64,000 nucleotides of DNA from a bacterium. Lineage in GTDB: Bacteria; Desulfobacterota; Desulfocorpusculales; Desulfocorpusculum. The stretch spans positions 204,661 to 268,660 of the forward strand of contig JBBFLE010000002.1 in the NCBI GenBank assembly GCA_037481695.1. Reading direction: 5' to 3'. This document shows, piece by piece, positions 42,434 to 47,545 of the stretch. Each line of letters opens with the position of its first letter. The stretch's first letter is position 1. Made by a program: the position numbers and the translations under genes. Below the pieces are notes generated by a model. It was not told the DNA's origin. It did no database searches and was given only the letters and a program-made list of their open reading frames with translations.

Positions 42434-42991
42434 ATGGAAGATTCTAAGAGCATGAAAGACTCTTGTGGCAAGACCGCTTATGAAAATGGGCACAGGAGGC
42501 ACAATAGACTCTCTCGGAGTGGGATGAGAGCTGTTTTGCAAATTCTCATTGCAGGGGTGGCCACATTGGGCCTTACATCTGGATGCTTTTCCCCTGGGGA
42601 TTCATCCTCTTCACCCCAGGTCAAGGGAGACCAGTGGCGGCTTTCGATTAAGGACTTTCAGGAGGGCAAGGCCCGCCACTTCCATTACAGATTAGCTGAC
42701 AATACCACAGTTAGGTTCTTCCTCATCAAGACCTCTGACGGGACCTTTCGGGCCGCACTGGATGCTTGTGATGTTTGTTGGCCGCAGGGAAAGGGATATG
42801 TTCAGGATGGGAATTACATGGTCTGCAAGAACTGCGGACGTACATTCCGGAATCAAGACATAGGGCTGTACAGAGGGGGCTGCAATCCACACCCCTTGCA
42901 GTCCCGGCTTGAGGGAAAGGAGTTGGTGATAGAGCTGAAGGAGCTTCAGGAAGGCGCAAGATACTTCAGATCCACCAACCAGGTTTATTAG
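42434..42991 (+). CDS. DUF2318-domain lipoprotein (P19-type iron system component-like)
   Basis: This 185-residue protein has a long charged N-region, a hydrophobic segment ending in a lipobox-like TSGC and a DUF2318 domain. The domain is marked by four cysteines in a zinc or Fe-S-like pattern: DACDVCWPQGKGYV, MVCKNCGRTF, then GGCNPHPL. DUF2318 proteins occur in P19/FtrABCD-like iron-uptake clusters (Cj1660 in Campylobacter), next to FtsX-type permeases, an ABC ATPase and thioredoxins, exactly the genes that follow here. Their biochemical role is unproven. GGAGG lies 9 nt before the ATG. The first gene in its cluster; no p19 or FTR1-like gene is visible. Confidence 0.88.
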   Translation: MEDSKSMKDSCGKTAYENGHRRHNRLSRSGMRAVLQILIAGVATLGLTSGCFSPGDSSSSPQVKGDQWRLSIKDFQEGKARHFHYRLADNTTVRFFLIKTSDGTFRAALDACDVCWPQGKGYVQDGNYMVCKNCGRTFRNQDIGLYRGGCNPHPLQSRLEGKELVIELKELQEGARYFRSTNQVY

Positions 42992-43193: not shown

Positions 43194-44360
43194 ATGAAGA
43201 TGCAGGACATGGTCTGGAAAAGACTTCAGAGAAAAAAGGCCAAAGCCTTGTTTGTGCTCCTGGGTCTTTTGATAGGCGTGGGGGCTGCTGTGGGCTTTCT
43301 AAGCCTCACCCGTGCCCTCACTATGGAGATACAGCACAAGATGGAGCTTTACGGGGCCAATATCCTGATAACCCCTGCCACAGACAACCTCTCCTTGTCT
43401 TTCGGGGGAATTACCTTGGGGAGCATTTCCTTTGACATGAAGGAACTCCAGCAGAAGGAATTGGGAAATCTCTTGAGCATTCCCAATGCTCGCAATATAG
43501 CTGCCGTGGGCCCCATGCTGCTGGGAGCTGTGGCACATGGGGACAGAAGGCTTATTCTGGCCGGCATGGAATTCAGCTCCTTGGGCGCCCTTAGGCCCTG
43601 GTGGAGAATAAATGGGGAGTATCCTACTCAGGGTCAGGTAGTACTGGGAGCAGAGGCTGCAAGAATAATGGGTTTGAAGCCGGGGGAGGAATGGTCCATT
43701 CTGGGATCCAGATGGAAGATCTCTGGGGTCCTTGAGCCCACCGGGTCCCAGGAGGATCTGATGGCTTTCGCCCCTCTCTCAGAGGTTCAATCGGCCCTTG
43801 GGAAAGAGGGAAAAATAAGCATGGTGGAGGTGGCGGCCCTTTGCGCGGGATGCCCCATAGAAGAGATGGTGGCCCAGATTTCAAAGGTGCTGCCAGAGGC
43901 TAGGGTGCAGGCCATCAAACAGGTGGTGGAGGGTCGCATTGAAGCCATGAAACAAATGCAAAGGGTGGCCATGGGTCTTTCGGGGCTGGTGCTCTTGGTG
44001 GGATCCCTGGTGGTGTTTGTCACCATGATGGCCAGTGTAAGAGAGCGTACATCAGAGATAGGAGTTCTGGGAGCCATTGGATTTCCCAAGAAACAAATCG
44101 CAAAACTCATTCTCACGGAAGCAGCAGTCCTCTCTTTCTTGGCCGGAATTCTGGGATATGGCATTGGCATGCTTTCGGCCAAGGTGGCCTTACCATTTTT
44201 CTCAGAGGGGCACTCCCACAGTGCAGCCCATCTTCTTTTCCAGCCGGAGCTGGCCTTGGGGGCTGTGGCCCTTTCAACTGGCTTGGGGCTTCTGGCCAGC
44301 CTTTACCCTGCTTTGGCCGCATCCAGATTGGATCCTGCGGAGGCCATTCGCAGCCACTAG
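43194..44360 (+). CDS. FtsX/MacB-type ABC transporter permease
   Basis: This 388-residue permease has an N-terminal membrane helix (KALFVLLGLLIGVGAAVGFL), a large periplasmic MacB-PCD-like domain (about residues 45-240) and three C-terminal helices forming the FtsX domain (GLSGLVLLVGSLVVFVTMM; TEIGVLGAIGFPKKQI coupling helix). Type VII ABC systems of this kind use mechanotransmission rather than classical transport. In the Campylobacter P19 cluster two such permeases are present; here there is one. It is followed by its ATPase. ATG 43194 or 43200 could be the start; both lie behind a G-rich tract. Confidence 0.92.
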   Translation: MKMQDMVWKRLQRKKAKALFVLLGLLIGVGAAVGFLSLTRALTMEIQHKMELYGANILITPATDNLSLSFGGITLGSISFDMKELQQKELGNLLSIPNARNIAAVGPMLLGAVAHGDRRLILAGMEFSSLGALRPWWRINGEYPTQGQVVLGAEAARIMGLKPGEEWSILGSRWKISGVLEPTGSQEDLMAFAPLSEVQSALGKEGKISMVEVAALCAGCPIEEMVAQISKVLPEARVQAIKQVVEGRIEAMKQMQRVAMGLSGLVLLVGSLVVFVTMMASVRERTSEIGVLGAIGFPKKQIAKLILTEAAVLSFLAGILGYGIGMLSAKVALPFFSEGHSHSAAHLLFQPELALGAVALSTGLGLLASLYPALAASRLDPAEAIRSH

Positions 44361-44565
44361 GCGCCATGATTCCAAAGAAGCGCAAAGTCAGGGTTGTATC
44401 GAGGATATGAATGAATGACTTGATTCATGCTAAAAAGCAAACAGATTGGGGATTTCAGATCCCACCCTGGTTCCAGAGGGATTACCTGGAGGTGCTGTGG
44501 GGTTTCGGGCCTCCCCAATGAGGGGGCTACAGGAGCAATCCAGGCTGGAAATTGGGAGGAGTGAC

Positions 44566-45237
44566 ATGTGCTTGATAAGAGCTGAGGGAATAGTCAAGAG
44601 ATACGGCCATGGGCCTGGTGTGGTGGAGGCTTTAAGAGGCATTGACCTGGAAGTTCCCGAAGGGGATTGGCTGGCCATAATGGGGCGCTCAGGCTCAGGG
44701 AAATCAACGCTTCTGACCGTGTTGGGAGGCTTGAACTCTCCAAGTGGAGGCAATTATTGGGTGGAGGATGTAGAACTCTATTGTCTGCCCCTCCAGCAGC
44801 GAGCCGAGTTCAGAAGGGAGAAGATGGGCTTCGTATTCCAAAGCTTCCAGCTTCTGGACTATCTTTCAGCCATAGAAAATGTAATGCTACCTTTGGTGAA
44901 CAGCCCCATGCCTTCCCGCCGAAAGAAGCAACTGGCCAGGGAGGCCCTGGAAAAGGTGGGCCTGTACCACAAGGGATCAAGGCTGCCTGCCCAGCTCTCA
45001 GGAGGAGAACAGCAGAGAGTGGCCATTGCAAGGGCCATAGTGAACCGTCCAGTGCTTCTTCTTGCGGACGAGCCTACAGGCAATTTGGATTCAGCCACTG
45101 CCGAGCAAGTCATGGAGCTCTTCGGGGAGCTCAACAGTCAAGGAATGACAATAGTGATGGTCACCCACAGCGAGCAGTGGGCAGCCATGGCAAAAAGGAT
45201 CACAAGAATATCCGATGGTCGCGTGATGGGAAATTAG
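44566..45237 (+). CDS. ABC transporter ATP-binding protein (LolD/MacB-type)
   Basis: This 223-residue ATPase has Walker [11 protein letters not shown]-loop VFQSFQLL, signature LSGGEQQR, Walker [13 protein letters not shown] and H-loop VTHS. It belongs to the LolD/FtsE/MacB group that partners FtsX-like permeases, fitting the gene just upstream. The start at 44566 has GGGAGGAG upstream; a longer frame from 44446 adds non-family sequence. It is followed at 64 nt by the selenocysteine thioredoxin gene. Confidence 0.94.
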
Positions 45238-45300
45238 TTGGTGCACCCCATGCTCCTTGGGGAGCCTGTTTTCTGAGTCTCAATGATGAGGGAGGATGAA

Positions 45301-45840
45301 ATGAAACGTGTTGTTCTATGGGGCCTGATCTTACTGGGAGGGCTCTTTTTTTGGATGTGGCTTCGAGGGGGATTGGTCAACTCAGGGCTCAGAAGCCCAC
45401 GAGAGCTCTTCCCTTCGGCACATCGCCAATCAGCCCCTGAGATCCTGGTCAGGGATTTGGGCGGTACAACGGCCAGCATCCCAGGGCAGCTCCGAGGGCC
45501 TGCATTGGTGGTTTTCTGGGCCAGTTGGTGACCGGCCTGCAGGAGGGAGTTGCCTTCCTGGGAAAAGCTATATAAGGAGGTGGGGGATCAACCCATCCGG
45601 CTCATTGCAGTGGCGGTCAGAGACAGCAAGAATGAACTCAGAAGGCTCGTGGCTGGGGAGGGCTTGACTCTGCCTGTTTTTCTGGATGAGCTTGGGAACT
45701 CTGCTTCCAGTTGGGGTGTTAGGGCTCTGCCCACTGCAGTTTATTTGGATCATGGCGGAAGGCTGGCGGGCAGGTTCGTAGGCCCCCAGAGCTGGGACAA
45801 GGAGACACTTCTAAAACTGGCCCAAGAAGACATGAAATGA
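45301..45840 (+). CDS. Selenocysteine-containing thioredoxin-like (TlpA/ResA-type) protein
   Basis: This is one reading frame of 179 residues interrupted only by TGA at 45529-45531, read here as Sec77. The context is FWASW-U-PAC-RRELPSW, the thioredoxin active site WCxxC with the first Cys replaced by Sec. Downstream the fold continues in the same frame (IRLIAVAVRDSKNELRRL, LPVFLDELG, cis-Pro in VRALPTAVYLD). An N-terminal membrane anchor (VVLWGLILLGGLFFWMWL) places the domain in the periplasm. A SECIS-like hairpin lies directly after TGA. GGGAGG precedes ATG 45301. The alternative, a nonsense mutation at exactly this codon, is much less likely. It may serve the adjacent DUF2318/ABC system as reductant. 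Confidence 0.9.
45529..45560 (+). promoter_or_regulatory. UGA selenocysteine codon with bacterial SECIS-like hairpin
   Basis: The TGA (45529-45531) is followed by CAGGAGGG (45540-45547), a 5-nt loop AGTTG (45548-45552) and CCTTCCTG (45553-45560). This gives an 8-bp stem with one G-U pair. The apical loop contains GU and lies 17-21 nt after the UGA, the spacing expected for SelB-binding bacterial SECIS elements. Confidence 0.75.
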
Positions 45841-45936
45841 GGGGAAGTCTCCCTTGGCCTTGTTTGCAGAATTGACAGGAGTCCACTCCCTCACCTAGAA
45901 TCCCCCTAATTAGGCAGGGGAATCTGGAGGAAGATC

Positions 45937-46509
45937 ATGATTAAGCTCTTGGCCGTGCAGGGTAGTCCTCGAAAGGGCGGTAACACAGAGATCCTGCTGG
46001 AGAAGGCCATAGAAGGGGCTTTGGCCGCTGGTGCCCAGGTCAAGAAGGTTGAGCTTAGGCTGCTTCATATAACACCTTGCCTTGAAATCTATGAATGTAA
46101 GAAAACCGGGCTTTGCCCCATCCAAGACGACATGACTCCGCTTTACTCGGAGATAGACTCTTCTAACAGACTCATTCTGGCCTCGCCCATATTCTTTTAC
46201 AGTGTCACAGCCCATGCCAAGGCTTTTATAGACAGGTGCCAGGCCGGATGGGCCCGCAGATATGTTCTTGGCAGGCGTGTGGAGTCCCCTGTGGCAAGAA
46301 AGGGCGCCTTCATATCTGTGGGAGCCACCAGGGGCAAGAAGCTCTTTGAGGGTGTGAAGCTAACCGTCAAGTATTTCTTCGACGCACTGGACATGGAGTA
46401 TGCCGAGGAATTGCTGGTGAGAGGGGTGGACGAGAAAGGTGAGATCCTCAATTATCCTGAGCACCTTCAGGCGGCTTACGAGCTGGGAAGGCGCATGGGC
46501 ACTCCCTGA
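45937..46509 (+). CDS. NADPH-dependent FMN reductase / flavodoxin-fold iron-sulfur flavoprotein-like
   Basis: This 190-residue flavodoxin-fold protein begins LLAVQGSPRKGGNTEILL, the FMN phosphate loop. It then carries the Cys motif region CLEIYECKKTGLCPIQDDM, seen in iron-sulfur flavoproteins and multimeric flavodoxin reductases; one Cys of the usual CxxCxxC pattern appears missing. ASPIFFYSVTAHAKAFIDR is the flavin-contacting segment. It probably transfers electrons to a quinone, metal or redox partner. GGAGG precedes the ATG. It starts 96 nt after the selenothioredoxin gene and heads a run of DUF2889 and PHP genes. Confidence 0.87.
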   Translation: MIKLLAVQGSPRKGGNTEILLEKAIEGALAAGAQVKKVELRLLHITPCLEIYECKKTGLCPIQDDMTPLYSEIDSSNRLILASPIFFYSVTAHAKAFIDRCQAGWARRYVLGRRVESPVARKGAFISVGATRGKKLFEGVKLTVKYFFDALDMEYAEELLVRGVDEKGEILNYPEHLQAAYELGRRMGTP

Positions 46510-46524
46510 ACAAGAGGTTTCATA

Positions 46525-47010
46525 ATGATCTTGAGCTTCCTCAGGAACAAGGTGATGGACGTGAGCCAGGAAAAAGACGGCTCTCTTAGGGTTTCCTGGA
46601 GACTTACGGACACCTTTTGGGATGCAGCTCTGGAGATAGTTGTAACACTGCCTGATCTCGAGATAAGAGCCGCATCAGGCACCATCCGTAGATCTCCCTA
46701 CAAGCAGTGCAGTTCTGCTCCAGAGCTGCTTTCAAGGGTTGTGGGAGTAAGAGTGGGAGCAGGGTTGAGAAAAATAGTGGAGGGGTTAGTGGGAGGCCCC
46801 TCGGGCTGCCCGGAGCTGGCAGAAGGGGTCTTGGAATGCTGTAATGCCGTGATACTGCACTTTACCGTGCCCCAGCTCCAGGCCACTGAGACAGGTACAG
46901 AGGAGCAAAAAAGGGAGAGCTTCCAGGCCATGCTAAGACTCAATCCCCGCCTGGTGAGAAGCTGTGTGGCCTTTGCCGAGGACAGTCCACTGATGCAAGG
47001 TCTTGTTTGA
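46525..47010 (+). CDS. DUF2889-family protein (first of two)
   Basis: This 161-residue protein of the DUF2889 type has an N-terminal beta part (LRVSWRLTDTFWDAALEIVVTLPDLEI) and the family Cys motif in GPSGCPELAEGVLECCNAV. It is probably cytoplasmic: no signal peptide. GAGGT lies 7 nt before the ATG, 15 nt after the flavoprotein stop, so the two are co-transcribed. The function of the family is unknown. Confidence 0.8.
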   Translation: MILSFLRNKVMDVSQEKDGSLRVSWRLTDTFWDAALEIVVTLPDLEIRAASGTIRRSPYKQCSSAPELLSRVVGVRVGAGLRKIVEGLVGGPSGCPELAEGVLECCNAVILHFTVPQLQATETGTEEQKRESFQAMLRLNPRLVRSCVAFAEDSPLMQGLV

Positions 47011-47089: not shown

Positions 47090-47545
47090 ATGATCTCTTT
47101 TAGCAGAACCATGCTCGTGGGAGCCGAATTCCCTCAAGAGGATCTGGTTCGCTTTCACGGAATGCTTGAAGACCGCATATATGCCATGGAAATTCTCATG
47201 GATGTGCGCATATCGGACGGTGTGGTCCAGGCCATTCGAGGCCGGATGAAGAGATTTACGACTCCTGTGTGCCCCAAGGCAGAGGACATATTACAAGTGG
47301 CAGTGGGGATGTCCTTGAGGGAACCAGGCTGGATCTCCAGAATCAATAAGGAAGTGGGCCGAAAGGGCTGCCAGCATTTTGCCGAGATATTGGTGGAGTG
47401 CGGCAGATGCCTGGATGCGGCCTGCATGGCCCATGATGTGTTTGCCAAGATCAAGGAGACTCCGGATGTTGACCCCTCATGGCTGGCTCAGGCTTATAGC
47501 GCTTCCCACCCAGAGCTTTCTGGCAGATGTATGGCCTCACCATAA
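47090..47545 (+). CDS. DUF2889-family protein (second of two)
   Basis: This 151-residue paralogue of the preceding gene has FHGMLEDRIYAMEILMDVRISDGVVQ at the N-terminus and RKGCQHFAEILVECGRCLDAA at the Cys motif. The GC-x(2,3)-[LF]AE-x(2-4)-EC pattern matches that of its neighbour, though overall similarity is modest, which suggests an old duplication or a heteromeric pair. AAGGAG precedes the ATG. It is followed closely by a PHP gene. Confidence 0.8.
   Translation: MISFSRTMLVGAEFPQEDLVRFHGMLEDRIYAMEILMDVRISDGVVQAIRGRMKRFTTPVCPKAEDILQVAVGMSLREPGWISRINKEVGRKGCQHFAEILVECGRCLDAACMAHDVFAKIKETPDVDPSWLAQAYSASHPELSGRCMASP

Follow-up and report, generated by a model that had tools for sequence, protein, structure and literature searches.

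A predicted selenocysteine-containing TlpA-like thioredoxin encoded next to a DUF2318/ABC transporter gene trio in Desulfocorpusculum

Within the window, i.e., the whole stretch of 64,000 nucleotides that was analysed, the forward-strand frame at 45301-45840 raises the question of whether a gene for a thioredoxin-like protein is broken by a stop codon or whether this codon is read as selenocysteine (Sec). Read-through translation from the ATG at 45301, which is preceded at a distance of 5 nt by a predicted ribosome-binding site (GGGAGG, 45290-45295), meets a single internal TGA (45529-45531, residue 77) before the closing TGA at 45838-45840. The resulting product of 179 amino acyl residues, U77 included, begins with MKRVVLWGLIL, holds the segment VVFWASW-U-PACRRELPS, and ends with EDMK. 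With translation table 11, the locus is divided into one ORF of 82 aa (45283-45531) and another of 96 aa (45550-45840), just as the earlier note on this DNA had expected of a gene caller. We consider it highly probable (roughly 0.93) that 45301-45840 is one uninterrupted selenoprotein gene, as judged from sequence, and that the UGA is read as Sec. Such an insertion is very likely, as the Sec machinery is complete, TGA recurs at this codon in relatives, counterparts with Cys exist, and a SECIS-like hairpin is present.

The read-through protein seems to be a TlpA/ResA-like thiol-disulfide oxidoreductase, as indicated by profile and alignment matches. The Pfam models AhpC-TSA, Redoxin, and Thioredoxin all match it, and PF00578 covers residues 43-155 with an E-value of 1e-15 and 58.1 bits at a gathering score of 26. 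Similarity to ResA extends over residues 43-166 without a break at the TGA, which bears out the earlier claim that the thioredoxin fold continues in the same frame on both sides, and the sequence also matches the solved structures of ResA, StoA, and TlpA (E 5e-15 for ResA and 6e-9 for TlpA). In the alignment to 3kcm and 4nmu, the two Cys positions of WCxxC are taken by residue 77 and C80, respectively, so that the in-frame TGA stands, exact to the base, where the first active-site Cys of FWASW-U-PAC-RREL had been placed. Alignment to solved structures and homologues indicates that both active-site chalcogens and the cis-Pro of the thioredoxin fold are present. Residues 4-21 are hydrophobic, as judged by eye, and probably form an N-terminal anchor; TGA-bearing relatives likewise start with a hydrophobic stretch. 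If the UGA were a true stop, a membrane peptide of 76 aa and a separate C-terminal product of 96 aa, starting at TTG 45550, would be expected. Both ORFs do exist mechanically and, UGA recoding being generally incomplete, a shortened form will arise at times; however, each half would be an incomplete thioredoxin devoid of the UxxC pair and the similarity to homologues spans the TGA, which makes a true stop most improbable.

A search of 198 relative genomes identified many TlpA-like proteins, several of them with one internal TGA. Twelve TGA-bearing genes were retrieved; 11 of these show U-x-x-C at this position, and the twelfth (from genome G020) is of the UGC type. This latter gene, L143:4955-5860 (+), codes for a long ResA-like protein with WASW-U-GC and resembles the WAxxUGC_long class. 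A profile search over 395 genomes of the phylum yielded further TGA-bearing homologues, and the aligned UxxC set, the window protein counted, now comprises 15 genes from 13 genomes and five families, all 15 with TGA at this codon. Position 77, C80, R81, E83, P85, and the cis-Pro P144 are invariant in 12 aligned proteins. In a control set of 140 homologues, 126 carry TGC or TGT at the codon and 139 carry TGC, TGT, or TGA; homologues with Cys or Sec at residue 77, for which the earlier note had proposed to look, are thus nearly universal in this set. One genus holds both states, with TGA in two genomes and, in a third, TGC in a homologue that shares 66% identity with a TGA-bearing protein of the genus. 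In one relative (genome G197, locus L141), a TGA-bearing TlpA gene is situated 3' of a gene whose start looks CcdA-like by eye.

A nonsense mutation, or a sequencing or assembly error, in an ordinary Cys-type TlpA gene would also place a TGA in the frame, and the window indeed comes from a single draft genome of 4.10 Mb in 52 contigs, with a stated completeness of 100%, that has one copy of the gene. Against such an accident speak the occurrence of TGA at the same codon in many other genomes, a frame that is open and conserved on both sides without any other lesion, the enrichment of the hairpin in TGA genes, and the complete Sec machinery, and we regard it as very unlikely.

Folding and homologue comparison predict a bSECIS-like hairpin at 45540-45560 (arms 45540-45547 and 45553-45560, loop 45548-45552) with 8 bp, one of them G-U, and the loop AGUUG, which occupies nucleotides 17-21 past the TGA. 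An 8-bp hairpin with a GU-containing loop at this distance had been noticed before and could be located exactly. As the hairpin overlaps the codons of the conserved CRxE peptide, constraint on the protein could mimic it, and hence two controls were employed. Among 1000 synonymous recodings of the window peptide, 36 gave equal or greater stability. Stems with 6 or more bp and a loop starting 17-22 nt after the TGA occur in 11 of 13 TGA genes versus 10 of the 126 homologues with Cys (Fisher 4e-9, a value that is too good because the sequences are related and because part of the Cys set was gathered by a Cys-containing pattern). In the loop region, all 12 TGA genes having a Glu codon there employ GAG, and the Cys genes have 57 GAG and 37 GAA. 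Covariation is weak to modest, both sides of the stem changing in two of nine pairs, and a slide by +3 scores alike on some measures. The same-genus Cys homologue has not lost the hairpin, as a 6-bp stem persists. Both the geometry of a SECIS element, i.e., a stem-loop soon after the UGA with a G in the apical loop, and its enrichment among TGA genes are found, and by these comparisons the predicted hairpin at 45540-45560 exceeds chance.

The genome encodes homologs of SelA (595 bits), SelB (370 bits), and SelD (381 bits) as well as a tRNA-Sec(UCA) (75 bits), each above the curated family cut-off, and the absence of selA, selB, selC, and selD that the earlier note had named as a refutation can be dismissed. 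A second SelB above cut-off was not encountered in a profile search of the genome. The selD gene (L018, contig C3:67670-68590 of genome G000) likewise contains a TGA in frame, within a GUASK motif, at which a standard caller would shorten it. The tRNA-Sec cut-off is narrowly passed at two more places, which ARAGORN reads as tRNA-Ser and tRNA-Cys. A tRNA-Cys (GCA) of 94 nt (L011:1500-1593, minus strand, contig C16), whose variable arm is long and whose last nucleotide is U, scores 50 bits as tRNA-Sec and looks like the selC* type described by Mukai et al. (2017; review, PMC7609411). In view of this tRNA, the UGA could be thought to specify Cys instead or, with a changed code, Trp. However, the anticodon of the selC*-like tRNA-Cys is GCA, not UCA, which rules out the reading as Cys by this tRNA, the tRNA-Trp seen has CCA, TGA ends the window gene and its neighbours, and a proper tRNA-Sec(UCA), SelA, and SelD are encoded in the genome. 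Decoding as another amino acid has therefore hardly any probability.

For the selenoprotein that we favour, the following mode of action can be proposed. SelB and Sec-tRNA(UCA) would decode the UGA at 45529-45531 as Sec, guided by the hairpin at 45540-45560, and the N-terminal hydrophobic segment would anchor the product in the membrane with its thioredoxin domain presumably outside the cytoplasm. U77 and C80 of the UPAC motif would then form the redox pair, whose selenenylsulfide might be exchanged with disulfides or dithiols in client proteins. One DsbD_TM protein, i.e., a single transporter of the DsbD_TM/CcdA type, is encoded in the genome and could supply electrons, and the adjoining DUF2318 lipoprotein with its CxxC motifs is a plausible candidate for a client.

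Upstream of the thioredoxin gene and on the same strand, three genes code for a DUF2318/FtrD-like protein (42434-42991; PF10080, E 9e-31), an FtsX/MacB-type ABC permease (43194-44360; PF02687, E 2e-22, and PF12704, E 1e-11), and a LolD/MacB-type ABC ATPase (44446-45237; PF00005, E 9e-32). The DUF2318 protein is probably a lipoprotein (LTSGC) and has two CxxC motifs and another Cys; the ATPase probably starts at ATG 44566, and its best NCBIfam model is LolD with 215 bits, under the cut-off. A weak terminator-like hairpin (45252-45265) lies between the ATPase and thioredoxin genes. Downstream, a promoter-like site (45872-45901) precedes a gene for an FMN reductase/flavodoxin-like protein (45937-46509, plus strand; PF03358, E 1e-19), which does not clearly belong to the system. 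Two adjacent DUF2889 genes (46525-47010 and 47090-47545; PF11136) and a PHP-domain gene follow.

PF10080 was found in 75 of 297 genomes, and most of 40 other DUF2318 loci show the trio of DUF2318 protein, permease, and ATPase. An HMM search did not detect a TlpA-like gene directly 3' of the ATPase in any of these 40 loci, some of which are cut at contig ends. As to the putative ABC/DUF2318 operon proposed earlier, the gene order in the window is as described, but the thioredoxin is not a standing member of the unit in the phylum, and a role as conserved follower of the trio can be rejected for the loci searched. Metal or efflux genes are situated near the trio at seven loci. Ten proteins from these seven loci were scanned, and HMA domains were identified at four loci, CusB-type adaptors at three, and OEP efflux proteins at three; as the ten were chosen for their metal/efflux look from the neighbours listed at 20 trio loci, the selection does not provide a rate. 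These neighbours suggest a metal-handling role for the DUF2318/FtsX/ATPase trio in the phylum.

A quick tree built from 117 rows shows the window protein alone on a long branch without a supported neighbour. Its best match by identity in this set is a Cys protein (35%), and a close TGA-bearing relative is lacking from the set. The label U requires seven changes on the tree, at least four of them forced by starred branches, although these counts are approximate, some rows being duplicates and one row (L117) being labelled U with its TGA unconfirmed at the active site. It is possible that the window lineage gained Sec independently. The wider proposal, that Sec was gained independently of the other TGA lineages of the phylum and that the product also works with the DUF2318/FtsX/ATPase unit in metal handling, as its dedicated redox partner, appears doubtful. 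The locus offers a well-supported predicted selenoprotein that annotation would split or lose, and TGA-bearing TlpA-like proteins are scattered across five or more families within one phylum. Furthermore, a testable link emerges that could tie a Sec thioredoxin to the DUF2318/ABC unit; this unit is poorly understood and, in some relatives, has heavy-metal efflux genes next to it.

In Campylobacter jejuni, fetA-fetF support iron uptake by FetMP, FetE being an oxidoreductase with a thioredoxin fold (PMC10783030, PMC6083913). As in this fetMP-fetABCDEF system, a thioredoxin gene, here with a presumably periplasmic product, follows genes for a DUF2318 protein, an ABC permease, and an ATPase in the window. 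In contrast, FetE and FetF have CPSC and CGVC motifs, and the Fet system possesses an 8-TM FetA and two permeases versus one in the window. Pfam profiles for FetM (FTR1, PF03239) and FetP (P19, PF10634) gave no match in the genome; with both families missing, the locus does not fit the definition of the Fet system in C. jejuni, and membership in Fet iron uptake is ruled out. Among the open-access papers listed, none connects DUF2318 or FetE with selenoproteins, which is weak evidence of absence.

The UGC-containing TlpA proteins of the WAxxUGC_long class (NF041054) share with the window protein the ResA-like character and a Sec following WAxx, but they carry UGC instead of UxxC, and the window protein reaches 49 bits at a cut-off of 300. 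With ResA, TlpA, and StoA it has in common the fold, the motif FWAxW-x-PxC-R-E, the cis-Pro, and the N-terminal hydrophobic segment, whereas those proteins have CxxC in place of UxxC; the NCBIfam models for ResA and StoA score far under their cut-offs (66 versus 170 and 71 versus 210 bits, respectively). A close known class is that of the Prx-like thiol:disulfide oxidoreductase selenoproteins (PF00578, UxxC/UxxU; exemplar WP_010940744.1), to which the window protein was matched by domain and motif. UxxC selenoproteins with PF00578 are an already listed predicted class (PMC9312934, PMC13188914), and relatives also have the N-terminal hydrophobic stretch, so that the earlier view of Sec at this site in a membrane-anchored thioredoxin as unusual was overstated. 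Like members of this class, the window protein scores above the gathering score of PF00578 and has a predicted Sec in place of the first Cys (UxxC); it differs in its isolated position in the tree and in adjoining a DUF2318/ABC trio. Very probably, on sequence grounds, this already predicted selenoprotein family gains with it a new member that stands phylogenetically isolated.
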